NCBI GenBank assembly: GCA_019456305.1 | Contig: VRUD01000001.1 | Location: 73,717-110,598, forward strand | DNA from: Cytophagales bacterium | GTDB lineage: Bacteria > Bacteroidota > Bacteroidia > Cytophagales > VRUD01 | Direction of reading: 5' to 3' | Length of the DNA stretch: 36,882 nt | Shown here: piece after piece, positions 1,474 to 21,914 of the stretch | How the letters are laid out: each line of letters begins with the position of its first letter | How positions within the stretch are numbered: the first letter of the stretch is position 1 | Position numbers and translations under genes: made by a program | Notes under the pieces: model-generated | Database searches by the model: none | What the model was told of the DNA's origin: nothing | Seen by the model: the letters and a program-made list of their open reading frames with translations, nothing else

Positions 1474-1625
1474 AATTAAATGATTATGAATTTTCTGTTA
1501 AATAACATCAATATTGTCCGAAATACTGTCCGAAAAAAACGAATAGTTTATTTATCTTCTTTCACAATATCAACAACTTCTTCAATAACTTTTTCAAGAT
1601 TCATCAGTTTAATTTTTTTGAATTG

Positions 1626-1992
1626 TGGAGCCGGAGGGAATCGAACCCTCGTCCAGACAAGGAAACTGATGCGCTTTCTACATGCTTAGCTTCAATTAAT
1701 TTTCGGGAATAAAGAAGGTCAGAAGCTTACCTGTACTTAATTCCTTAGATGCTAAATCTCACTGATATACCGCATCAAATACATCAGCCAGTCCTGCATG
1801 ATGATGTCTCAAATGTAAACCCGGCAGCACGAAGGGTTTACGAGACACATGCTGCGAAATCCTTGATTAGGCAGCAATGGCGTAGTTAAAATCGCCAGTT
1901 AAAAAGTTGAGCGCTTTATTTTACGGGTAATACCCACAAAACCCGGCATGCTTACACACAGCTCGACCATGCTGTCAATTCCAGTCGGCCCC
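1626..1992 (-). ncRNA. ssrA: tmRNA (transfer-messenger RNA)
   Basis: tmRNA rescues stalled ribosomes and tags the unfinished protein for proteolysis. Read on the minus strand, the 5' end GGGGCCG (from 1992) pairs over 7 bp, including one G-U, with CGGCTCC at the 3' end, followed by discriminator A at 1626. CCA is not encoded. The T arm has GGTTCGATTCCCTCC. The tag frame is at 1896-1867: GGC GAT TTT AAC TAC GCC ATT GCT GCC TAA, giving GDFNYAIAA after the alanine loaded on the RNA. This matches Bacteroidota tags, which end in YALAA or YAMAA. Length is about 367 nt and appears one-piece, not permuted. Confidence 0.95.
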
Positions 1993-7405: not shown

Positions 7406-7423
7406 ATGCTCCATGCGCTTTTA
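7406..7423 (-). repeat. TAAAAGCGCATGGAGCAT repeat at the stop codon of the CHAT gene
   Basis: On the minus strand the 18-mer begins with the TAA stop codon of the CHAT gene. The identical 18-mer begins with the stop codon of the DUF35 gene at 36720-36737. Related arms are at 30308-30324 and 30386-30404. Confidence 0.75.
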
Positions 7424-10400
7424 CTCCCCAATCATCACAAAAGCTCCCCAATAATATGGAAATTTATATTTTTCTTTCAAGCTCAGTTGAGCCTTTTTAA
7501 AAGCATCTTGTTTGTTACCTGAAGATACCCAGTTTTTATAAAATGTGATCATAAGTTCCCTTGTTGTCACATCATTTACTTTCCAGAGGCTCATGATTAT
7601 TGCCTGGGCTCCTGCTATTATAAATGCTCTTTGCAAACCATACACACCTTCTCCGTTTCTCACTTCTCCAAGAGCTGTTTCACATGCAGACAATACGACC
7701 AAATCGGTTTTGTCCAGATTCAGGTTCATAGCTTCATAAGCCGTTAGAATACCATCTTCTAAATTATGAATGACGAATGACGAATGACGAATGCTACTGC
7801 CTGCCTGCACCAAGGATTCGGCAGGCAGGCTACTTTTATTAAGCGTAGTAGAAGCGCCTGCAAGCATCAAGCCCGCATTTAATAATGGGTTGTCTTGTGT
7901 TTCATCATCACTGTCCTTATTAAAAAATCCGTGTGTTGCAATATGTAATACTTTGGGATTCGTAACGGCTTTAAGGTTTTCTTCCAAAGCCTGGTTTTCA
8001 AGAAAAACTTGCTGCTTCCAGCCTTCCCGGGCCAGGATATTACTGATCTCTTCTACTTCCTGCCGGGTTCCGGGCAGCATTTGTAAATTTTCACCTCTTT
8101 CAATATTCAAAACATAATATTGTTGCGGGGTATTGTATTGTTTTTGGCTGATGATATCAATACGTTCCTGAGTACCCAATTCATAATTTGGATACCCGAA
8201 GAAGACTGACAGATTTTCGGGATTGGGGCTTTGCAAGGGACGGGCTTCTACAGTTATAATATCTTTGGTGTTCGTTACGATACGAATATCTGTATTTTCC
8301 AAAAGATATTTTCCGTTATCAGGGATTTGTAAAGTATTTAAATTTATTAAATTATAGACGCCATCCGGAGAAAACCAGACCTTATTAATTGCAGATTGAC
8401 TGAGCGTTTGTGCGATTTTGTACCAGTATTGCCGGTAGCTGATTTTGTCTGACATTTTAAATTTGATAGAGTTTCGATAATTAAACAGGTATTTTTTTTC
8501 TAACTCATTTCCGTTTTCAAGTACAACCAATTCAGGATGGTCTTTGGTTTCTTTGGTAATGATTAATGCTATATAATATACCGTATCGGTAAAACCATCA
8601 TTTTCAACTACAACAATACTGTCATTCATCCTCCCATATTTCCTGAATCGAATAATTTCAATTGCTGCTTCATTTTCTTTTAACTGTGCTTGTACATGCT
8701 GCCAGGTAATGGTTTGTTTTTCGTATGCCAGTTTAAATAATTCTGAACTTTTGGAAAGCGCTCTTTCCAAATTATTGGCTTCTTTTTCCAGGTCATCAAT
8801 ATTAACACCTTGTTTTTCAATTTCTGCTTTGCTCAAAGAATACAGCTTGCCCAGATAATTTCTTTTTGAACGCCATTGCTTGTATTTTTGGATGAGGACT
8901 GTGTCGTTACTGCTCATTATTCTCTGACGCACTTTATTCGTTGAATTGATGAGCAGGGCTTTGGTGGCTAACCTGTAATTATAAACTTTACCTTCTACAT
9001 TCAGTTTTCCGATATTTTTACCTGTAAATATAAAAGAATAATACTTCTCAAAATTCTCTTTGATTGTATTATAGAATTCCCCCTTTTCCTTTTCACTCAT
9101 AGATGGGAAATAAGCCTGGATCTGGTAAAGATAATTATCCATTGCTTGCTCAAAATATTTTTCAGCTTCAGCATATCTGCCCATTTTCACATATAAACCT
9201 GCGAGATTGTAGGTAGTAGTAGTGTATTCGGGATTATTAACACCTAATTGATTTTTTTCTATATTAATTGCTTCTAAGAATAACTCTTCGGATTCAATAT
9301 AGCGGCCTGTTATATAATAAAACGATGCCAAAGTGCTGATAAATTGAGCGTAGTCAGGATGATTTTCCCCTAATTCAGCTTTAACTATTTTTTTGGATCT
9401 TAAATATAATTTTTCAGCTTCAACATACCGACCTGTTTCCTTATAAAGTACTGCCAGATTGTTAAGGTATAAAGCATATACTACAGGTGCATTTACAATT
9501 ATGCGGTTTTTCCCTAATTGTTTTGTATAAATTTTTATTGCTTCTAAATAGAGTTTTTCGGCATCGCTATAGCGACCAATTTTATAGTAAAGCACACCCA
9601 GAGCATTGAGCGATTGGGCATATTCGGGATCATTTTCTTCTAACTGGGTTTTCCTTATTTTCATTGCTTCTAAATGTAAAGCTTCAGCTTTATAATAACG
9701 ACCAATTTTTTCATATAATGCCGCCAGATTATTGAGAGATTGAGCATAAAAGGGATGGTTTTCCCCTAACTGAGTTTTCCGGATATTAGTGGCTTCTAAA
9801 TATAATTCTTCCGCTTCAGGATAACGGCCAAGCTGTTTATAATGTAATGCCAGATTATTAAGATGAGAAGAATATCCCAGGTCATTTTCACCTAAAATGG
9901 ATTTATCTATATTTATTGCTTCTATGAATAATGCTTCAGCTTCAGAATAATTACCTAAAAAATCATAACATGAAGCAAGGTCATTTAATGTATAAGTATA
10001 ATTAGGATTATTTTTCCCGAATCCTTTTTCAATGGTTACTAAAGCCAATTTTAAGAATTCTATGGCTTTTTTATAATTTGCATTATTATAATACACAACA
10101 ACACTATCATAGAGAGATTCCCAAATTCCTGCGTACAACAGTTCCATAGCGCTGAGAATAGTTTCATATAAGGGATGGTTATTGCTTAATTGGGTTTCAA
10201 TAATTTCTATTGATCTTAAATAGTTTTCTTCAGCCTCTCTATTTCGTCCCACATTTTGATAAAGCACCGCCAGGCTGTATAGGAAATTGACATATTCAGG
10301 ATTGTTTTCGCCCAATCGCATTTTTATAATTTTCATGCCTTCTAAATATAATTTTTCAGATTCACTATAATTCTTCTTGGTTAGATACAGATATGCAAGC

Positions 10401-11293
10401 CAGCTAATAGTTTTGGCATATGATAAATTATTTTCACTTAGTATTTTCTTTCTAATACGTTGATCTTTCTCAAAATAATTAATGCTTTTGTCAACTTTTC
10501 CAAGATAATAGCATATTTCTCCCATGATAGTCAATGTGTTTGCATAATTCGTATCCAGCTTCCCAAACTCCTTATCTGCCTGTAACAGGGCTTTTTCACC
10601 ATACTGTAATGCTTTATAGTAATGTCCTTTTTGGAAGTATTGCTGCGTTAAGCTGTGGAGTTTTTGCCATTCCTCGTATAAACGATCAATATTCTCAATC
10701 TCTTGCTGCATCCATTCCAACACTTTCCGGCATGCCTCAACCTGCCAGCCATTTTTTATAAATAATAGAAAGTCTTCAGTAATCGCTTTAAATTGTTCTT
10801 TTGATTCTAATAATGATAAAGCTTTTCTGTAAAGCTCCTTAGCATTTGTTGAATCGCCTTTTAATAAGTATGCATGTGCTAAATTAAACCGGTGGGTCGC
10901 AGTGTGTGGGTTATACTTAACTGCTTTTTCGCAGGCTTGAATGGCTTGCGTAAATTCGCCTTGCAGGATAAAGCACCATCCCAGATTCCCATACTCACCT
11001 GTTTTTTCATTTATATCAATCGTTCTTTTATAGCTTTCTATGGCTTTATCTATTTCATTCAAATTATAATAAGCATGTCCAAGATAAGTATAAGCAAAAC
11101 TAAAATTGGGATTGATCTCAAGCGATTTTTTGTAGTATTCAATAGCATTTTCAAAAAAACCTGAATCATAATATTGACCAGCCTGCTTATAGAGTTTTTG
11201 TGCTTCTTCAGATATATTGGAAGATTGAGCGCATAGAGGCACACATTGCCTGAATATATTGAAGATTAACAGGTATAGGAATAAATTTTTCAT
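7421..11293 (-). CDS. TPR-repeat protein with C-terminal CHAT (caspase-like) protease domain
   Basis: This 1290-residue protein has a signal peptide (MKNLFLYLLIFNIF ... PLCAQ), about 20 TPR/kinesin-light-chain-type repeats (units such as YAQSLNNLAALYEKIGRYYK and AEALHLEAMKI) to about residue 720, a helical linker, and a CHAT domain at about 960-1290. The CHAT dyad is visible: His in HIATHGFF near 1120 and Cys in VVLSACETALG near 1202, with GEGVYGLQRAFIIAGA and SLWKVND following. CHAT proteins are caspase/separase relatives that cleave protein partners. In Bacteroidota many TPR-CHAT proteins are uncharacterised; some CHAT proteases act in defence or cell death. The export signal argues for an envelope role. 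A repeat-derived insert of about 23 residues (LPAESLVQAGSSIRHSSFVI) lies between the two catalytic motifs. Confidence 0.9.
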   Translation of the reverse strand: MKNLFLYLLIFNIFRQCVPLCAQSSNISEEAQKLYKQAGQYYDSGFFENAIEYYKKSLEINPNFSFAYTYLGHAYYNLNEIDKAIESYKRTIDINEKTGEYGNLGWCFILQGEFTQAIQACEKAVKYNPHTATHRFNLAHAYLLKGDSTNAKELYRKALSLLESKEQFKAITEDFLLFIKNGWQVEACRKVLEWMQQEIENIDRLYEEWQKLHSLTQQYFQKGHYYKALQYGEKALLQADKEFGKLDTNYANTLTIMGEICYYLGKVDKSINYFEKDQRIRKKILSENNLSYAKTISWLAYLYLTKKNYSESEKLYLEGMKIIKMRLGENNPEYVNFLYSLAVLYQNVGRNREAEENYLRSIEIIETQLSNNHPLYETILSAMELLYAGIWESLYDSVVVYYNNANYKKAIEFLKLALVTIEKGFGKNNPNYTYTLNDLASCYDFLGNYSEAEALFIEAINIDKSILGENDLGYSSHLNNLALHYKQLGRYPEAEELYLEATNIRKTQLGENHPFYAQSLNNLAALYEKIGRYYKAEALHLEAMKIRKTQLEENDPEYAQSLNALGVLYYKIGRYSDAEKLYLEAIKIYTKQLGKNRIIVNAPVVYALYLNNLAVLYKETGRYVEAEKLYLRSKKIVKAELGENHPDYAQFISTLASFYYITGRYIESEELFLEAINIEKNQLGVNNPEYTTTTYNLAGLYVKMGRYAEAEKYFEQAMDNYLYQIQAYFPSMSEKEKGEFYNTIKENFEKYYSFIFTGKNIGKLNVEGKVYNYRLATKALLINSTNKVRQRIMSSNDTVLIQKYKQWRSKRNYLGKLYSLSKAEIEKQGVNIDDLEKEANNLERALSKSSELFKLAYEKQTITWQHVQAQLKENEAAIEIIRFRKYGRMNDSIVVVENDGFTDTVYYIALIITKETKDHPELVVLENGNELEKKYLFNYRNSIKFKMSDKISYRQYWYKIAQTLSQSAINKVWFSPDGVYNLINLNTLQIPDNGKYLLENTDIRIVTNTKDIITVEARPLQSPNPENLSVFFGYPNYELGTQERIDIISQKQYNTPQQYYVLNIERGENLQMLPGTRQEVEEISNILAREGWKQQVFLENQALEENLKAVTNPKVLHIATHGFFNKDSDDETQDNPLLNAGLMLAGASTTLNKSSLPAESLVQAGSSIRHSSFVIHNLEDGILTAYEAMNLNLDKTDLVVLSACETALGEVRNGEGVYGLQRAFIIAGAQAIIMSLWKVNDVTTRELMITFYKNWVSSGNKQDAFKKAQLSLKEKYKFPYYWGAFVMIGE
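7768..7830. repeat. In-frame repeat insert inside the CHAT domain
   Basis: On the plus strand there are 3.7 copies of the 7-mer GAATGAC (7768-7793). A perfect 10-bp inverted repeat follows: GCCTGCCTGC at 7799-7808 and GCAGGCAGGC at 7821-7830, with a 12-base loop. In the protein this adds roughly residues 1154-1177 between the catalytic His and Cys motifs, in frame. Confidence 0.75.
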
Positions 11294-13374: not shown

Positions 13375-15525
13375 ATGAATTTAATTGAAACAGGAATAAA
13401 GAAAGGTCTTATAAGGTTTGATGAAGAACGAAACTTCATCACCTACATTCATCAGAATAAAAAGCGGAATTACAACGAACCCGAGGTAAAAGTTCAGGCA
13501 GAAACTTTTTTAAAGCTCATTATTCGTTATAACTATCCTGTTGAAAGAGTTAAAAACTATGTTTCCGTTCAAATGGGTTCGGAACCAAGAGAAGCGGATA
13601 TTATTGTTTATGAAGATGAGGAGTGCGAGAAAACGCACATTGTAGTTGAATGCAAAAAAGAAGAAATTACCGACCAAGCATTTAACAAAGCCGTTGACCA
13701 AGCATACAGTTATGCCGTTGCAGAAGGAGGGAAATTTGTTTGGACAACTTCAAAAATTAAGGATGAGTATTACGAAATTCCAGAAAAGAAACCAAAGAGC
13801 AGAATTGTTATTCCTGACATTCCCCAATTCGGAGTAAAAAAACTTGCACCATACAAATATGTGAAAGGCGGAATTTTACAAACCGACACAAGCCGAGTTG
13901 TAGAACCCGAAGTTGAATACATAGCAAAGCAAAAGTTTTTTGAACTGGAAGTTGTAAGCGAGAACGAACTCACAAAAATTTTCATTCAGGCACATCAGGC
14001 ACTTTGGGGAGGCGGACAAAGAAATCCAAGTGTTGCATTTGACGAATTGGACAAATTAATCTTCTGCAAAATTTGGGACGAGAAGCACCCAAGAAAATCT
14101 GGCGACCCCTACGATTTTCAGATTTTCAGAGATGAAACACCCGATGAACTTTTAAAACGAGTTCAAGAACTGTATTCACACGGCAGAAAGAAAGACCCGG
14201 AAGTTTTCAAAGAGGGTATCAATCTTTCAGCAGACGAAACACAGACCATTGTAAAATATCTTCAACGGATAAACCTCAATAAAACTGACCTTGACAGCAA
14301 GGGCAAGGCGTTTGAGACATTTATGGGCAGTTATTTTCGTGGCGACTTCGGACAATATTTTACGCCACGACCAATTGTAAAATTTATCGTGGATAGTTTG
14401 CCCATTGACAATTCAAAGAGGGTTTTAGATACAAGTTGCGGTAGCGGAGGTTTTCTCTTGTATGCCTTGGACAAAGTGAGAGAGCAAGCAAATGAATTTT
14501 ATGATAAGGACAAAGAAGAAAAAGACCATTTCCGCCATTGGCACGATTTCGCAGAAAAAAATCTTTTCGGAATTGAAATTAACGACCAGATTGCACGAAC
14601 AGCAAAAATGAATATGATTATTCACGATGACGGACACACAAATGTTATTGCGACAGACGGTCTTTTGAATGATGAAGAATTACAAATAAAATCCAGGAAT
14701 AAAGAATTTGAATACAGCACTTTTGATTTCATTGTTACCAATCCGCCTTTCGGAAGCATCATTAAGCAAACTGAAAAAGCATATATGCACCAATACAGTT
14801 TTGGAAAAAAAGAACAGGACTGGTTAAGCACAAACGGAACAACCAAAGAAACAATACGAGACAGCCAAAGCACAGAGATTTTATTTTTAGAACAATGTCA
14901 TAAATTTTTAACCGAGCAGGGATATTTAGCCATTGTTATTCCTGACGGCATTTTAACCAACAGCAGTTTACAATATGTAAGAGATAATCTTGAAGAACTC
15001 TATCGCATGGTTGCAGTGGTCTCAATGCCTCAAACCGCGTTCACTGCCACTGGTGCAGGAGTAAAAAGTTCCGTTTTGTTTTTGCGAAAGCATAAAGAAA
15101 AAGCAACCGAGAAAATTTCTAATCAGAAAGTAAGGTTGAAAGAACAGTTAAAGAAAGACAACAAGTTTATTGAAACCATTGAAAAGTGGGAGAAAGAAAA
15201 AAGCATTGCCATTAAAAAATTAGAAGAAGCAACCAAAAAGAAGAATCCCAATGCAGTAAAAAAAGAAATTTCCCAATTACTCAAAGAAGAAAAAAGCAAA
15301 TTACAATCAGCATTTACAGATAAAGTGAATTTGCTGAAAGAAGAAATGACTGGAAAATATTTTGAAGCCAAACAGCAGACACTTGACGACTATTCTATTT
15401 TTATGGCTATTACAGAGGACATCGGCTATGACGCTACTGGAAGAAACACGGGCAACAACGAACTGATTGAAATTGGAAAAGAACTTTCAAAGTTCATTAC
15501 TCACATCAACAAGACAGAAAAGTAA
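13375..15525 (+). CDS. Restriction-modification fusion protein: HsdR_N-type nuclease plus N6-adenine methyltransferase
   Basis: The protein has 716 residues. The N-terminal domain (about 1-160) looks like the HSDR_N nuclease module. It has Asp75 (READIIVYE), Glu92 and Lys94 (VVECKKEE), a PD-(D/E)xK-type triad. A type I HsdM-like methyltransferase follows: QYFTPRPIVKFIVDSL (about 325), SAM motif I LDTSCGSGGFL (about 350) and catalytic NPPF (about 455). The C terminus is a Lys/Glu-rich coiled coil (about 570-680). The order nuclease-methyltransferase with a separate specificity gene is that of BcgI-like (type IIB/IIG) systems. No HsdR helicase/translocase gene is present. It is the first gene of the island, with its S subunit 1.1 kb downstream beyond the ncRNA and abiF. 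Confidence 0.85.
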   Translation: MNLIETGIKKGLIRFDEERNFITYIHQNKKRNYNEPEVKVQAETFLKLIIRYNYPVERVKNYVSVQMGSEPREADIIVYEDEECEKTHIVVECKKEEITDQAFNKAVDQAYSYAVAEGGKFVWTTSKIKDEYYEIPEKKPKSRIVIPDIPQFGVKKLAPYKYVKGGILQTDTSRVVEPEVEYIAKQKFFELEVVSENELTKIFIQAHQALWGGGQRNPSVAFDELDKLIFCKIWDEKHPRKSGDPYDFQIFRDETPDELLKRVQELYSHGRKKDPEVFKEGINLSADETQTIVKYLQRINLNKTDLDSKGKAFETFMGSYFRGDFGQYFTPRPIVKFIVDSLPIDNSKRVLDTSCGSGGFLLYALDKVREQANEFYDKDKEEKDHFRHWHDFAEKNLFGIEINDQIARTAKMNMIIHDDGHTNVIATDGLLNDEELQIKSRNKEFEYSTFDFIVTNPPFGSIIKQTEKAYMHQYSFGKKEQDWLSTNGTTKETIRDSQSTEILFLEQCHKFLTEQGYLAIVIPDGILTNSSLQYVRDNLEELYRMVAVVSMPQTAFTATGAGVKSSVLFLRKHKEKATEKISNQKVRLKEQLKKDNKFIETIEKWEKEKSIAIKKLEEATKKKNPNAVKKEISQLLKEEKSKLQSAFTDKVNLLKEEMTGKYFEAKQQTLDDYSIFMAITEDIGYDATGRNTGNNELIEIGKELSKFITHINKTEK

Positions 15526-15563
15526 AATAATGATAGGATTTTTTAAAAATATGTTTTTATTAG

Positions 15564-15593
15564 TTGGTAGTTTAAAACTTTGTACTATCTTTG
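15564..15593 (+). promoter_or_regulatory. Promoter of the abiF-associated ncRNA
   Basis: TTG at 15564-15566, a 19-bp spacer, then TATCTTTG at 15586-15593. This is the best match to the Bacteroidota -33/-7 consensus in the window. The expected start is near 15600, 75 bp after the RM stop. Confidence 0.75.
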
Positions 15594-15599
15594 CGCCAA

Positions 15600-15732
15600 C
15601 AGTACTCGCCACGCTACCCATAAGAACAGCGTCCCAGGGCGAGTCTTTTGCTTTTATAACTTTTCTCTTTTCTAATAAATACACCTCCCATGCTTGCATT
15701 TTGTGCAGCACACTTGGGAGGTCTTTTCTTTT
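15600..15732 (+). ncRNA. Structured ncRNA upstream of abiF (candidate RNA antitoxin)
   Basis: This transcript of about 133 nt is bounded by its own promoter and an intrinsic terminator. Hairpin 1: ACTCGCC (15604-15610) pairs with GGCGAGT (15638-15644); stacked inside, ACGCT (15611-15615) pairs with AGCGT (15628-15632), leaving a 12-base loop and a one-sided CCCAG bulge. A U-rich, A-rich linker follows (15645-15682). Hairpin 2 is the terminator stem at 15683-15722. No reading frame longer than a few codons with a start fits the segment on the plus strand. It ends 15 bp before the abiF start codon. AbiF-type proteins are known to be accompanied by adjacent structured ncRNAs, so an antitoxin RNA role is proposed. 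The exact match to that RNA family was not tested. Confidence 0.6.
15683..15732 (+). terminator. Terminator of the ncRNA / attenuator before abiF
   Basis: ACCTCCCA (15683-15690) pairs with TGGGAGGT (15715-15722), with inner pairing TGC..TTGCA/TGCA..GCA, followed by CTTTTCTTTT. The abiF Shine-Dalgarno-like AAGGGGG begins just after the T-run, so abiF translation needs read-through or an upstream transcript. Confidence 0.75.
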
Positions 15733-15747
15733 ATAAGGGGGCTAATT

Positions 15748-16656
15748 ATGAAATATAACAAACCTACAATTACAATAGCCCAACAAATTGCTCAATTAAA
15801 AAGCAGAGATTTGATAATTGCCGATGAACCTGGCGCTGAATATTTTTTACAAAATGTTAGTTATTACCGTTTAGCGGGATATTGGTGGCCCATGCTGGCA
15901 GATAAAGTACTACACACTTTTAAGCCCAACAGCACATTTGAGAATATAATTGCCATTTACAATTTCGACCGTGAATTGCGATTGCTTTTATTTGGTGTAA
16001 TTGAGCGTATTGAAATAGCTTTCAGAACTAAACTTATTTATCATCTTTCACATGAAGTTTCGCCTTGGTGGTTTGAAGATGTTTTTCTTTTTAAGAATGC
16101 AGTAGAACATACAAAAACTTTGACTTCATTAGACAGAGAGCTACAACAAACAAGAGAAATTTTTATCACCGAACATTACAAAAAATATCATACCGACACC
16201 AGGCGGCCTCCATCGTGGAAAACATTAGAGGTAGTGAGCTTTGGTGTTATTTCAAAATTCTATGGCAATTTACTTTCAACCATAGCTTCAAAAGATGCTA
16301 TTGCCGCTGAATTAGGAACTGTAAATCATACTTTTTTACCAAGCTGGCTGCAAAGCATAGCACAGATAAGAAACATTTGTGCTCATCATGGACGATTATG
16401 GAATAAACACTTGCCCGGCAGACCCAAGCTATTGCCCAAACCCCCAAAACCATGGATTGCAAATGTACCCCCGGCAACAGAGTATTATATGCTTTATGTA
16501 CATTTATGCTGTATGAAATACCTGATGAACATAATAAACCCGGGCAACCGCTTTACAAAACATTTGGTTGACCTTATGACAAAATATCCGAACATTGACC
16601 CCAATGCCTTAGGATTAAAACCCAACTGGCAAAACGAACCATTATGGCTACAATGA
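15748..16656 (+). CDS. abiF: AbiF/AbiD-type abortive-infection protein (Abi_2, HEPN RNase)
   Basis: This 302-residue protein of the Abi_2 family starts MKYNKPTITIAQQIAQLKSR. Family blocks are YFLQNVSYYRLAGYWWP, IYNFDRELRLLLFGVIERIE, IAFRTKLIYHLS, and the HEPN catalytic motif R-N-I-C-A-H (IAQIRNICAHHGRLWN, RxxxxH) near residue 210. Abi_2 proteins stop phage growth by killing or arresting the host. HEPN members act as RNases, and AbiF-like proteins are regarded as relatives of the Cas13 ancestor. The start at 15748 is preferred to the ATG at 15694, because it has AAGGGGG 7 nt upstream while 15694 lies inside the terminator hairpin. The stop overlaps the next gene as ATGA. Confidence 0.88.
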   Translation: MKYNKPTITIAQQIAQLKSRDLIIADEPGAEYFLQNVSYYRLAGYWWPMLADKVLHTFKPNSTFENIIAIYNFDRELRLLLFGVIERIEIAFRTKLIYHLSHEVSPWWFEDVFLFKNAVEHTKTLTSLDRELQQTREIFITEHYKKYHTDTRRPPSWKTLEVVSFGVISKFYGNLLSTIASKDAIAAELGTVNHTFLPSWLQSIAQIRNICAHHGRLWNKHLPGRPKLLPKPPKPWIANVPPATEYYMLYVHLCCMKYLMNIINPGNRFTKHLVDLMTKYPNIDPNALGLKPNWQNEPLWLQ

Positions 16657-18059
16657 GCAGTTTTACCATATCACCAACATTCAATAAGAACAAAGTTTTT
16701 TTACTTCAAAAAAGCGAAGTAGAAAAACGGCTTGACCCTGATTATTATCATTTGGAAAGAAGATTTGAAATTGATAGATTAAAAAAATCCAAGCATCTTT
16801 TAAAGAGTTTGAAATCAACGGCATCATTTCCTAAAATAATTCTGTCAGAAAATCCTGATAATCTACCTTACATTGGGTTAGAAGATATTGAAAGTAACAC
16901 AGGAACATATTTTAACAATTCAGAGAAAGAAAATTTTGGAACTGCACTTTATTTCAAAACTGGAAATGTTCTCTTTCCTAAGCTTCGTCCATATTTAAAC
17001 AAAGTTCATCTTGCAGATTTTGATGGTATATGTTCAACAGAATTTGTAATTCTTGATAGCAAAAAAGTATCAGCGAAATTTCTTTCCGCATTTCTTAGAA
17101 GTTCCATTGTTGTTAATCAAACAAAGCATATGATGTCTGGTAACACGTTGCCAAGACTTCAAACAGAGGACATTGAAAATATTCTTGTTCCTATTCCTGA
17201 TGAAACAACTCAAAATAAAGTTGTTTCAATAATGGAAATTGCTTTTAAACAGAAAAAACAAAACGAAGCACAAGCCGAAAAACTTTTGGCAAGCATTGAT
17301 GATTACTTGCTGAAAGAATTGGGAATTACTTTGCCTACTCTACCTGAAAATATTTTGAAGAATAGGATTTATAAAATTTTTCGTAGTGAAATTTCAGGTA
17401 GCAGATTAGACCCTTACTATTTCAGCAAATACTTTTTTGAAGTTTACAAATCAATTAAAGCAGGAAAATATCCTGCAAATTCTATTTCATCAATAACTGT
17501 AAACATTGATACTGGAAGAACACCATCAAGAGACAGTTATGTTGAAGATGAAAGAGAAAATAAAATTCCAATCGTTAAAGCAGGCAGCTACACTGGTGAT
17601 TTTATTGATTTTTCTAAATGTGATTATACTGCAATGGATTTTAAAGGCAATGAAATATTTAAAGGTGATATTTTCATTTTGGGTGCTGCACATCAGGCGG
17701 AGTATGTCGGCAAAAAAGTTTATTATATGAATGAAATACCAAAGACAAAGACATTTTTTGTCGGTGAACTTGTTCGTATTTCCGCAAATCCACTGAAATA
17801 TGATAGTTCTCTTCTTTTCTCAATACTCAAAACAAAAATCTATTCTTTATTATTGAATAGAGAAAAAAGAGGACAGACATCTCATTTATATCCAGATGAT
17901 GTAAAACATATTATTATTCCGGTTCCCCTGCTTGCCAAGCAAAAAGAAATTGCCGAGCATATAACTGACATCAGAAAACAAGCACAACAACTAAAGGACA
18001 AAACAAAAGAAGCATTAAAAAAAGCGAGTGAGGAAATTGAAAAGATTTTACTCGATTAA
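16653..18059 (+). CDS. hsdS: Type I-like restriction specificity subunit (HsdS)
   Basis: This protein of about 468 residues has two target-recognition domains. The halves start with similar signatures (EKRLDPDYYHLERRF near residue 25, SGSRLDPYYFSKYFF near residue 250), each followed by a variable DNA-reading region and a helical spacer (TTQNKVVSIMEIAFKQKKQN; KQKEIAEHITDIRKQAQQLK). This is the classical HsdS pseudo-dimer. It gives sequence specificity to the nuclease-methyltransferase at 13375. The ATG at 16653 forms ATGA with the abiF stop; an in-frame ATG at 16644 is also possible. The overlap implies that hsdS translation depends on abiF translation. Confidence 0.85.
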   Translation: MSSFTISPTFNKNKVFLLQKSEVEKRLDPDYYHLERRFEIDRLKKSKHLLKSLKSTASFPKIILSENPDNLPYIGLEDIESNTGTYFNNSEKENFGTALYFKTGNVLFPKLRPYLNKVHLADFDGICSTEFVILDSKKVSAKFLSAFLRSSIVVNQTKHMMSGNTLPRLQTEDIENILVPIPDETTQNKVVSIMEIAFKQKKQNEAQAEKLLASIDDYLLKELGITLPTLPENILKNRIYKIFRSEISGSRLDPYYFSKYFFEVYKSIKAGKYPANSISSITVNIDTGRTPSRDSYVEDERENKIPIVKAGSYTGDFIDFSKCDYTAMDFKGNEIFKGDIFILGAAHQAEYVGKKVYYMNEIPKTKTFFVGELVRISANPLKYDSSLLFSILKTKIYSLLLNREKRGQTSHLYPDDVKHIIIPVPLLAKQKEIAEHITDIRKQAQQLKDKTKEALKKASEEIEKILLD

Positions 18060-18063
18060 TTCG

Positions 18064-18091
18064 TTGGAATTCTAATGAAATACTATTTTTG
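18064..18091 (+). promoter_or_regulatory. Promoter of the ABC-3C operon
   Basis: TTG (18064-18066), a 17-bp spacer, then TATTTTTG (18084-18091), close to the Bacteroidota consensus. The ATG at 18118 is 27 bp further on, so the three-gene system can be expressed separately from the RM/abiF unit. Confidence 0.5.
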
Positions 18092-18117
18092 TTTTGTTCT
18101 TAAAAAGTAAAATTATT

Positions 18118-19059
18118 ATGGCTCGTAAACAGCCTACACCGACAATCATTAAAAGATTATTTGCTTTATCAGGCAATATTTGTGCTTTTAATAATCCTGT
18201 TTGTTCTGAAAATATGGTGGATAAAAAAGGAAATGTCATAGGTCGTATATGCCATATCGAAGCTGCGAATAAAAAGGGCGAGCGATTCAACGATAATTCA
18301 AATGATGAAGCCAGACGGGATTTTGACAATTTAATTTTACTTTGTGATAAGCACCACACTATAACAAATGATGTAAATTCTTATACAGTTCCTGTTCTTC
18401 AAAAAATGAAGGCAGACCACGAACAGAATTTCTTAAATAATAAATTTAAAGTTTCAGAAGATACAATTGCTGATGCCATAATAAAGTACGAAAAAAATTA
18501 TTCGCAAATTAACACAAACAGCAGTGGTGTACAAGTAAATCTACAGGGCGAAAATCTATATCCTAAAATTGAGATTCATAACTATCCTCAAAACGAAAAG
18601 CAAGAACTAACAGTTATTGATGAATTGTTTTTGTATGTGTTAAATCAGATAAAAGACGGGGTAGGAAAAGATTATAAACCTGAAGAAAGCATTAATTTAC
18701 ATGATAAAATAGTTTTAAATTTTAAAACGAAAAAAGAACAGATAATTGTTTCAGAATATATAAAATCAGCGTTGCTGAAAACAGATTTAATCAGAAGAAG
18801 GTATGAAATATTAGATACTGAATCCCAAAAAGACATTCACTCTCATATTTTTGGTCGTTATCAGGAATTGAAACTTGAATTATCTAAAAATATTGAAATT
18901 CTGAATACTTTGTTTCATGAATTTACCCCATCAACAAAAAAGCATGATTCAGCATTTATAAACTTAGCAAAAGCATTTGTGCTATTTTTCTTTGAAGATT
19001 GTACAATCTTCGAGAAAACTAAAACAGAGAAAGCCAAACAAACAAAAATAAATTTTTAA
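18118..19059 (+). CDS. HNH-domain effector of an ABC-3C-type defence system
   Basis: This 313-residue protein has an N-terminal HNH nuclease-like domain: paired cysteines (CAFNNPVC), ICHIEAANKKGERFN and FDNLILLCDKHHTITND, a zinc-supported beta-beta-alpha-metal fold with the catalytic His in CHIEA. After about residue 110 there is a separate C-terminal region (TVIDELFLYVLNQIKD to the end) that resembles the ABC-3C partner domains. In ABC-3C systems this domain is thought to couple the effector to the ATPase. An earlier in-frame TTG (18094) overlaps the promoter, so ATG 18118 was chosen. The next gene starts 2 bp after the stop. Confidence 0.75.
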   Translation: MARKQPTPTIIKRLFALSGNICAFNNPVCSENMVDKKGNVIGRICHIEAANKKGERFNDNSNDEARRDFDNLILLCDKHHTITNDVNSYTVPVLQKMKADHEQNFLNNKFKVSEDTIADAIIKYEKNYSQINTNSSGVQVNLQGENLYPKIEIHNYPQNEKQELTVIDELFLYVLNQIKDGVGKDYKPEESINLHDKIVLNFKTKKEQIIVSEYIKSALLKTDLIRRRYEILDTESQKDIHSHIFGRYQELKLELSKNIEILNTLFHEFTPSTKKHDSAFINLAKAFVLFFFEDCTIFEKTKTEKAKQTKINF

Positions 19060-19061
19060 TT

Positions 19062-19286
19062 ATGCTCATTCCAACAAAACACGAGAATTTGCAGCAAAAT
19101 ATCCTTGTTGTTGGCGCAGAGATACTGGCTATCCTAAAAAAACGCAGTTTCAATATAGAAGTATTATTTCAAAAAGTCAAAAACGAAAAACCTGTAAACC
19201 TTGAACAGTTTTATAATACACTTGTATTTCTTTGGCTTTCTGAGTTAATAGAACTTGACGAATATTTTATAAAAATTAAAAAGTAA
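19062..19286 (+). CDS. ABC-3C middle component (small protein)
   Basis: This 74-residue all-helical protein (MLIPTKHENLQQNILVVGAE, then ILAILKKRSFNIEVLFQKVK) sits tightly between the HNH and ATPase genes. Size, position and pattern fit the 'middle component' of ABC three-component systems, which bridges effector and ATPase. Its stop overlaps the next start (TAATG), so translation is coupled. The subfamily number was not determined. Confidence 0.7.
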   Translation: MLIPTKHENLQQNILVVGAEILAILKKRSFNIEVLFQKVKNEKPVNLEQFYNTLVFLWLSELIELDEYFIKIKK

Positions 19287-21076
19287 TGTTTCTAACAAAA
19301 ATATATTCCGAGCCTAAAGGTTTATTCAATAAATCTGTTTGTAAAAATGGAACTATTGAATTTAAAAATGGAATCAATTATATTTTCGGGAAAAAAAACC
19401 CTGCTAATCCTGTAGAATCTCTCAATGGCATTGGCAAGTCTTTATTATTGGATTTGATTGATTTTTGTTTTCTTTCGTCTTTTAGAAAACTGGATAATCC
19501 TCGATTATTTGAAGCTAAAGAATATTTATCGGGCTATAAAATTGTTTTAGAATTTAAGGTAAACAATAAAGATTATATCATTAAAAGAAGTGTTGACAAT
19601 CCTAATAAAATTGAATTTGGTAAATCCGATAAAATTATTCTCTACGAAAGTAAAACAGAAGTAAGTGAGCGTTTGTGCGACTTAATATTTAAAAACATCA
19701 AGTATAAAGGCTATTACGAAAGTAATTTGCTTAGAAAATTGTTGCCTTTCTTTTTGAAAATTCACAAACATAAGTCGCAAAAATTTATTGACCCAATAGA
19801 GTATATCAAAAATTGTACTGCCACCGAATTAAATCAATATCACTTATTTTTGATGGGTATTGATAACACTTTAATTAATAAAAATTATCTCTTACAAACA
19901 GAATTAAAAGATAAAGACCCCGCTATAAGAGAGATAAAACGGTTTATAGAGACAACCTTTGGCATTAAGAAAATTTCTGATATTGATAGCGAAATAGATA
20001 ACTTAAACAGAGAAATAAAGCAACTTGATAAAGCAGTAAAAGCATACAAACTTGCAGATAAATATAAAGACACAGAAACACAAGCAAATAATTTAACCGC
20101 AGAAATAAAAGAAAATGTTTATTTGAATTTTACCGACCAAAGCAAAATAAAATTATACAAAGAAAGCATAAAGCTAAAAGACGAAGTAAAGAATTTACGA
20201 CAAATAGAAAATATATATTCAGAGCTAAATGCTTTACTTGCTAAATCTATTAGGAAGACACTAAATGATGCAATTAAATTCAGAACTCAACTTTCTGTTT
20301 CACGTCAAAAATTTTTAGATGATGAAATTCAGGAATTAGAGGAGAATGTCAGGGTAAGAGAAAAAATTATTAATATAAAAGAAGAAGAAAGGGCAAAACT
20401 TTTTTCTTTTTTGGAAGCAAAAGAAGCGATTAAAGATTTAACGGAGGCTTTTTATATTATTAATGAAAAAAAGAAAAAAGTTAGTGATTTAGAAAGCAGA
20501 ATAAATCTTTTTAATGACCTGTCAAAAGAAAAAGCAGAATTAGGAGTAAAAGAAAAGCAGCTTGAACAAGAGGTTTTTAATTATCTTGCCAATATTCGGG
20601 AAGAAATCACTAATTTCAGAGATACATTTTCGGAAGTTTACAACAAGGTATATCCAGAAAACAAAAACAGATCTAATTTTTCAATTGCATCAGACCTTGA
20701 ATCGAAATCAAAAATTATTATTGATATTAATTTTCCCGCAATGCGTTCCGAAGGTAAAAATCAAGGTAGAACCCTAATCTATGATATAGCAATACTTTTA
20801 AACGCTATTGAGAAAAATATTAATTGCCCGAGATTTTTAGTTCATGATGGTATTTTTGATGGAATGGATAAAGCTCATTTTGTTGCTGTTTGTAATCTTT
20901 TATACGACCTCGCTAAGTTTGGTAAAGAGTTTCAATATATAATCCCTATTAATGAAGAAGGCACATTAAACGAGAAATTTGGAAAAGTTGATGAAGTGAA
21001 TGTTGAGAAAATTGAATCTGAAGCAATTGTAATATTAACACCAACAAATAAACTTTTAGGTAAAAGTTGGAATTAA
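19286..21076 (+). CDS. ABC-3C/DUF2326-type SMC-like ABC ATPase
   Basis: The protein has 596 residues. Walker A is NGIGKS (47-52) after YIFGKKNPANPVESL. A long coiled coil covers about residues 200-450 (e.g. IDSEIDNLNREIKQLDKAVK). The C-terminal part has RFLVHDGIFDGMDKAHF near 515-530, the DUF2326/Walker B-like segment. SMC/Rad50-like ATPases of this group act as sensors or motors in anti-phage systems, working here with the HNH nuclease and the middle component. The Walker A lacks the usual leading Gly spacing (LNGIGKSLLL), as is common in DUF2326 proteins. Confidence 0.8.
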   Translation: MFLTKIYSEPKGLFNKSVCKNGTIEFKNGINYIFGKKNPANPVESLNGIGKSLLLDLIDFCFLSSFRKLDNPRLFEAKEYLSGYKIVLEFKVNNKDYIIKRSVDNPNKIEFGKSDKIILYESKTEVSERLCDLIFKNIKYKGYYESNLLRKLLPFFLKIHKHKSQKFIDPIEYIKNCTATELNQYHLFLMGIDNTLINKNYLLQTELKDKDPAIREIKRFIETTFGIKKISDIDSEIDNLNREIKQLDKAVKAYKLADKYKDTETQANNLTAEIKENVYLNFTDQSKIKLYKESIKLKDEVKNLRQIENIYSELNALLAKSIRKTLNDAIKFRTQLSVSRQKFLDDEIQELEENVRVREKIINIKEEERAKLFSFLEAKEAIKDLTEAFYIINEKKKKVSDLESRINLFNDLSKEKAELGVKEKQLEQEVFNYLANIREEITNFRDTFSEVYNKVYPENKNRSNFSIASDLESKSKIIIDINFPAMRSEGKNQGRTLIYDIAILLNAIEKNINCPRFLVHDGIFDGMDKAHFVAVCNLLYDLAKFGKEFQYIIPINEEGTLNEKFGKVDEVNVEKIESEAIVILTPTNKLLGKSWN

Positions 21077-21122
21077 TATTAATTACCAACGCATTTACAA
21101 GCACATTTCCAATGAAATAAAT

Positions 21123-21914
21123 ATGGCTCAATCCTCCATAGAATGGACGGAAATGACATGGAACCCCACAACAGGTTGTTCCAAAGTTTCTGCGGGTTGT
21201 AAATTCTGTTATGCAGAAGTAATGTCCAAGCGTTTAAAAGCAATGGGGCAAGAGAAATATAAAAACGGATTTAAACTTACCATACATCCCGAAGCACTTA
21301 AAGTTCCTTACGAATGGAAAAAACCGAAAACTGTTTTTGTCAATTCAATGAGTGACTTGTTTCACAAAGACATTCCTTTGACATATCTGAAAAAAGTTTT
21401 CAAAGTAATGAATGAAACACCAAAACATACTTACCAAATCCTTACTAAAAGAGCAGATGTTTTGGCAAAATATGACACTATGGGAGTTTTAAATTGGACA
21501 GCGAATATTTGGATGGGCGTTTCAGTAGAAGATGAAAGAGTGATGGAAAGAATTGATTATTTAAGAAACATTGGAGCACACATAAAATTCCTTTCCTTAG
21601 AACCATTAATAGGGGCATTACCTAATCTCAATTTAACTAATATTAACTGGGTAATCGTGGGCGGAGAATCAGGACACAATGCAAGACCAATGAAAAAAGA
21701 ATGGGTAGTAGAAATAAAAAAAGAATGTGACCGAGCGGAAGTTGCTTTCTTTTTTAAGCAATGGGGAAAAACTGAATTTAACTCAAATCCTAACGACCCA
21801 ACAATTAGTACAGACCATCCTAAACACGCAAAAGGCGGTTGCAGTTTAAACGGAAAAATATACAGGAGAATACCTGACAAAGCAAAAACAGGAATGGAAT
21901 TAGAATTTGCTTGA
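21123..21914 (+). CDS. DUF5131 family protein (phage Gp37/Gp68-like, radical-SAM-like)
   Basis: The protein has 263 residues. The N terminus SIEWTEMTWNPTTGCSKVSA and the cysteine set C-x6-C-x2-C (CSKVSAGCKFC, residues about 19-29) are those of DUF5131, which resembles radical-SAM iron-sulfur enzymes. The motifs VFVNSMSDLFHKDIP, ILTKRAD, WMGVSVEDE and WVIVGGESGHNARPM follow. Members are found in phages and defence islands, commonly beside a 'three-Cys-motif partner' (TcmP) gene. No such partner is present here. The biochemical role is not established. It starts 46 bp after the ATPase gene and may belong to its operon. Confidence 0.85.
   Translation: MAQSSIEWTEMTWNPTTGCSKVSAGCKFCYAEVMSKRLKAMGQEKYKNGFKLTIHPEALKVPYEWKKPKTVFVNSMSDLFHKDIPLTYLKKVFKVMNETPKHTYQILTKRADVLAKYDTMGVLNWTANIWMGVSVEDERVMERIDYLRNIGAHIKFLSLEPLIGALPNLNLTNINWVIVGGESGHNARPMKKEWVVEIKKECDRAEVAFFFKQWGKTEFNSNPNDPTISTDHPKHAKGGCSLNGKIYRRIPDKAKTGMELEFA

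Follow-up and report, generated by a model that had tools for sequence, protein, structure and literature searches.

Positions 15564-16656 of the window (the whole stretch of DNA analysed here, 36,882 nucleotides of a Cytophagales genome) very probably carry an AbiF/AbiFr RNA toxin-antitoxin module of a type III-like kind, a reading to which we assign a probability of roughly 0.88. That the locus pairs an RNA antitoxin with a HEPN toxin had been proposed in a first-pass annotation of the sequence, and the proposal is now supported by covarying hairpins and by their linkage to abiF, function being ascribed by homology with tested relatives. Antitoxin action, RNP formation, termination with read-through, and RNase toxicity are likewise predicted from published relatives. 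The kind of system is itself already published, having appeared in 2025 as PbAbiF/AbiFr (8VZ6) and as RCd22/AbiF of C. difficile; new here are this member, the recognition of hairpin 2 as a second unit, an asymmetric decay of RNA and toxin, solo RNA units, and an RNA subtype undetected by the Rfam abiF model (RF03085, the only published model compared). A published account traces Cas13 back to AbiF/AbiFr, an RNA toxin-antitoxin system, and the locus adds to that system an intact member whose RNA the Rfam model misses.

Table 1. Features of the putative module and of its neighbourhood, in window coordinates.
Feature	Coordinates	Strand	Basis or context
hsdM-like methyltransferase, upstream gene of host operon	13375..15525	+	N6_Mtase 8.5e-37; HSDR_N_2 5.3e-13 (Pfam)
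Predicted Bacteroidota-type promoter of the RNA-abiF unit	15564..15593	+	Sequence; -33 TTG and -7 box
AbiFr unit 1, two-layer hairpin, 3' bulge, U-rich tail	15597..15656	+	R1 model, covariation, conservation
AbiFr unit 2, also terminator-like, without its own promoter	15675..15736	+	R1, R2, covariation in A5
abiF, Abi_2/AbiF-family HEPN ribonuclease toxin (by homology), 302 aa	15748..16656	+	Pfam, PADLOC, PDB; start ATG at 15748, stop at 16656
hsdS specificity subunit	16644..18059	+	Pfam Methylase_S 3.2e-19
PDC-M68A/SduA-like endonuclease candidate	18094-19059		Defence island
DUF2326 PDC-M68B/LmuB-like protein	19286-21076		Defence island
DUF5131 protein	21123-21914		Defence island

The identification of the protein as an AbiF bearing the HEPN motif RNICAH, already made from its translation, is borne out by a full-length Abi_2 domain (PF07751, E = 5.6e-54, 183.7 bits, profile positions 2-184 of 184) and by intact catalytic-motif residues R208 and H213, which align with the RNSCCH of 8vz6. 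The sole PDB sequence match is 8vz6_A (3.3e-59, residues 4-300), the structure of PbAbiF with its ncRNA (PMC12737573), and PADLOC labels the gene AbiD (2.1e-76). A scan of viral contigs with the AbiF protein found no relative.

Upstream of abiF, a promoter 5' of the RNA and a terminator-like end 5' of the gene are both present as sequence features. The -7 box TATCTTTG (15586-15593) lies 19 nucleotides downstream of a TTG at 15564-15566, and the corresponding TAnnTTTG motif, expected by chance roughly every 1,085 bases of the window, begins 11-12 nt 5' of nearly all first or only units among 45 units of related loci; at this spacing it was not seen 5' of second units in these loci. The promoter claimed earlier is thus upheld for its -7 box by recurrence at a fixed distance in relatives, the -33 TTG being a prediction from the sequence alone. 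For the region 15596-15735 the predicted folding energy is -38.6 kcal/mol (z = -5.3), a stability that none of 200 shuffled sequences matched. A generic terminator scan returned no sites, because its loop limit of 8 shuts out a two-layer hairpin. Relatives preserve the stems through compensating changes and differ in length in ways that break the frame, so that a coding role of the hairpin region, as in the mechanically called ORF 15467-15736, was rejected.

Hairpin 1, the first putative AbiFr unit, has an outer stem (15604-15610/15638-15644), an inner stem of five pairs, a 3' bulge and a terminal U-rich tract, its RNA being predicted to begin near 15597-15600. Among four relatives whose proteins are 69-81% identical, it forms the main conserved stretch 5' of abiF and contains invariant blocks. 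A covariance model (R1), built from ten hairpin-1 sequences, scores the window copy at 82.6 bits (this sequence being one of the ten) and finds matches directly 5' of nearly all related abiF genes. Conservation and covariation of the hairpins had been named beforehand as the check on the RNA, and both were found, for hairpin 1 in 34 sequences and for hairpin 2 in eight loci. In the 34 units of alignment A6, which was fitted to the model and whose counts should be read in that light, 94.1% of cells are paired and 11 of 12 pairs show two-sided changes; covariation scores 0.511, compared with 0.140 in shuffled alignments (0/500) and at most 0.084 when the pairing is slid, and covariation is present in alignment A4 as well. 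The tails of the units carry a mean of 8.5 U in 12 positions (45 units examined).

Hairpin 2 (stem 15683-15690/15715-15722, followed by the tail CTTTTCTTTTATA) had been taken for a terminator hairpin. Its U tract is indeed terminator-like, yet the element is more than a terminator: it is a second copy of the conserved AbiFr unit, since the models for the two hairpins cross-match and its stem covaries. R1, trained on first hairpins only, scores 15676-15734 at 31.0 bits (E 1.8e-6), a match that is persuasive only together with the R2 match and the fixed position, as R1 also gives about 30 bits to some ordinary hairpin-plus-U-tract sites among 395 genomes. R2, trained on the second hairpins of five other loci with the window left out, scores the window hairpin at 65.7 bits, and detects sole units elsewhere (L095, 50.2 bits; L067, 39.3; L066, 33.2). 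Covariation of the stem reaches 0.438 in alignment A5 (eight loci), against 0.257 in shuffled alignments (0/500). The cross-model matches and the covariation rule out a plain terminator. Both hairpins are therefore best described as putative AbiFr units that also resemble terminators, rather than as one antitoxin and one terminator; in the clade of the window the presumed antitoxin hairpin is itself terminator-like and can be doubled.

The RNA lies outside the reach of the published family model. An Rfam search of 15450-15850 at E <= 10 returned only eukaryotic chance matches, RF03085 being absent, and the window RNA falls below the RF03085 gathering threshold. The two share an outer stem, an inner stem and a 3' bulge, but differ in length, the RF03085 model spanning 37 nt and the window unit 60 nt. 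In a protein tree (in which the long branch of L105, a row translated in a wrong frame, was disregarded), the window AbiF falls outside the PbAbiF clade, in a sister clade; each of the five PbAbiF-clade members sampled (L070, L087, L092, L102, L103) has an RNA matched by RF03085, whereas the window RNA is unmatched, has a longer loop and comprises two tandem units. The RNA of phage phiC2 (L104) also matches RF03085. Window-type RNA and RF03085 nevertheless appear, on sequence grounds, to be one family, because an RNA on a B. fragilis plasmid (L105) is recognised by R1 (45.2 bits) and by RF03085 (40.1 bits, cutoff 37) at one and the same position, and AbiFr RNAs are best read as subtypes of that family that follow the protein tree.

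A separate line of evidence comes from the distribution of RNA and toxin across 395 Bacteroidia genomes. In these, every intact full-length AbiF gene (29 in total) is preceded by an AbiFr hairpin, detected by R1, R2 or RF03085 in 28 cases and by inspection only in one (L072). The converse does not hold: among 23 strong RNA units (at least 43 bits with R1), 15 precede an intact abiF, four a broken one (G283 C89, G152 C44, G183, G110), and four lack any abiF (G109, G219, G152 C33, G119). Intact toxin is thus missing at 8/23 strong units and RNA at 0/29 intact toxins (Fisher p = 0.0007, for two sets that overlap and loci that are related). Weak R1 matches (E 1e-4 to 1), found in many genomes, were left out; L060 and L063 proved to be hairpin-plus-U-tract sites without abiF. 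An RNA that outlasts its toxin, and an intact toxin not found without the RNA in these genomes, fit an antitoxin, since tolerated loss of toxin together with unseen loss of RNA is the pattern expected of one. The pattern provides an evolutionary argument separate from bench work.

How the module would work is suggested by its relatives. RCd22 belongs to C. difficile prophage phi027, a homologue of the system being carried by phage phiC2. It can neutralise AbiF whether acting in cis or in trans, the two are recovered together on purification, and toxicity is lost in R202/H207 mutants of the protein (PMC12373285); in PbAbiF, one AbiFr is bound per protomer (PMC12737573). By analogy, the private promoter would start a short RNA bearing two tandem AbiFr hairpins, with most transcripts ending in the U tract of one or other hairpin to yield abundant free AbiFr, and a minority of transcripts reading through into abiF and, via the gene overlap, hsdS. 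AbiF would act as a dimeric HEPN RNase binding one hairpin per protomer, so that a two-hairpin RNA could occupy a single dimer and shield its R208/H213 site. Were AbiFr lost or out-titrated, for instance on phage shutdown of host transcription, AbiF would be freed to cleave RNA, and growth would stop.

Several known systems resemble this arrangement. One is PbAbiF/PbAbiFr (8VZ6; Zilberzwige-Tal et al., Cell 2025, doi 10.1016/j.cell.2025.01.034), with a homologous protein over residues 4-300, a HEPN motif, an RNA antitoxin and an origin in Bacteroidota. Type III systems such as ToxIN likewise place an RNA antitoxin 5' of an RNase toxin gene with a terminator between the two; the fold of ToxN is unrelated to that of the HEPN RNase AbiF, and the ToxIN RNA is a pseudoknot repeat array, whereas the window has hairpins. 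RCd22/AbiFCd shares with the window a single promoter, a transcript carrying two abiF motifs, an AbiF gene reached by read-through (predicted for the window) and an intact HEPN motif (PMC12373285), but has a separate terminator after its two motifs and lies in a prophage lysis module, whereas the window units each end U-rich; the proteins are 33% identical, and RCd22-type RNA (phiC2) matches RF03085.

That the hairpins form only a cis leader, tandem attenuators or terminators that lower abiF and hsdS expression and play no protein-binding antitoxin role, is improbable, although the placement of the units at the start of the abiF transcript, their U-rich ends, and the short distance to the abiF start in single-unit loci would all suit such a leader, and RCd22 does reduce abiF transcription in cis (PMC12373285). 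A terminator has no need of the conserved loop and 3' bulge; solo units are retained with promoter and stems intact where abiF is missing downstream (L074, two in L076, and L075); and RCd22 binds AbiF and works in trans (PMC12373285). Cas13-like RNA targeting, with AbiFr as a guide, derives what appeal it has from the report of AbiF as the ancestor of Cas13 (PMC12737573), and we regard it as highly implausible: nothing resembling the spacer of a Cas13-type guide, variable but constant in length, follows the hairpin, and it is the stem that varies, with compensating changes, while the loop is conserved. Zilberzwige-Tal et al. are also said to have described AbiF in 2025 as a non-guided toxin-antitoxin system, which counts against a guide.

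The genomic context raises one more alternative, in which AbiF is mainly a second-line effector guarded by restriction-modification (R-M) in the manner of PrrC/EcoprrI, silenced by HsdMS and released by anti-restriction, with the RNA secondary. The upstream hsdM-like protein carries an N-terminal PD-(D/E)XK-like HSDR_N_2 domain (...DIIVYEDEECEKTHIVVECK), and the end of abiF overlaps the start of hsdS by 13 bp, or by 4 bp (ATGA) from an in-frame ATG at 16653. Such an arrangement has precedents, Abi2/AbiF proteins having been reported inside R-M operons and guarding having been proposed for them (PMC3710099), and abiF or the RNA lies within a type I-like hsd cluster at 8/42 loci. However, no hsd genes were found near about 80% of related RNA-toxin loci, which makes the RNA rather than R-M the constant partner, and a relative of the window R-M operon lacks the module entirely, so that we consider guarding very unlikely. 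PrrC/EcoprrI is also a HEPN toxin gene within an hsd cluster (PMC3710099), but the window AbiF lacks an ABC-ATPase domain and comes with a private promoter and an RNA partner. At the two closest relatives of the hsdM-like gene, in G148 and G185, neither RNA nor abiF is present, hsdS following the methyltransferase almost directly in G148 and an unrelated gene intervening in G185; the module is therefore most simply read as an insert in a pre-existing type of R-M operon. In an exploratory comparison, R-M embedding was found at 5/7 dual-unit and 3/35 single-unit loci (p = 0.001), where loci are related, L004, L071 and L073 were classed by judgement, and L004-L007 have only short flanks.

Under the favoured reading of AbiFr as an antitoxin, the solo and R-M-embedded forms turn trans action and the tuning of restriction genes into testable questions. 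Tentatively, and with the odds against it, promoter-bearing solo units (G152, G109, G219) might work in trans as anti-addiction or immunity RNAs against incoming AbiF, and tandem AbiFr terminators in R-M operons might set the amount of hsdS or hsdR, coupling toxin restraint to restriction. In G152, two solo units with promoters share one contig (L076, 6020-6083 and 11999-12059), and the only abiF detected (contig C44) carries interrupting stops. The solo unit of G109, where no abiF was found, scores 75.7 bits, has an intact promoter (L074, 6020-6079) and lies a few hundred bases from an apparent CRISPR array, judged by eye, and a cas2-like gene. In G219, a two-unit AbiFr that lacks abiF (L075, 5960-6096) immediately precedes hsdR; the type I R-M operon concerned is ordered hsdM-hsdS-...-AbiFr-hsdR, and a helix-turn-helix-like gene lies just before the AbiFr. 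On the cyanobacterial Picosynechococcus plasmid pAQ3 (L108), two AbiFr-like matches about 120 nt apart (1760-1816 and 1935-1990) lie 5' of an Abi family gene and adjoin a gene for a type I restriction subunit R.

Several other features of the surroundings were recorded. The interval 13375-21914 has the appearance of a defence island, in which the hsdM-like gene, AbiFr-abiF and hsdS are followed by three further candidates (Table 1). The window hsdM-like gene has two closest relatives, and in the hsd operon of each lies a similar-looking uncharacterised gene with the motif ...GGxxCxRGFAxxGDLA... (L113, 4524-5981; L114, 6679-8202; reverse-complement coordinates). Elsewhere in the window, a tmRNA gene (1623-1992, minus strand) encodes the tag GDFNYAIAA, and a TPR-CHAT protein of 1290 aa (7421-11293, minus strand) may have a caspase-like signalling or defence role.
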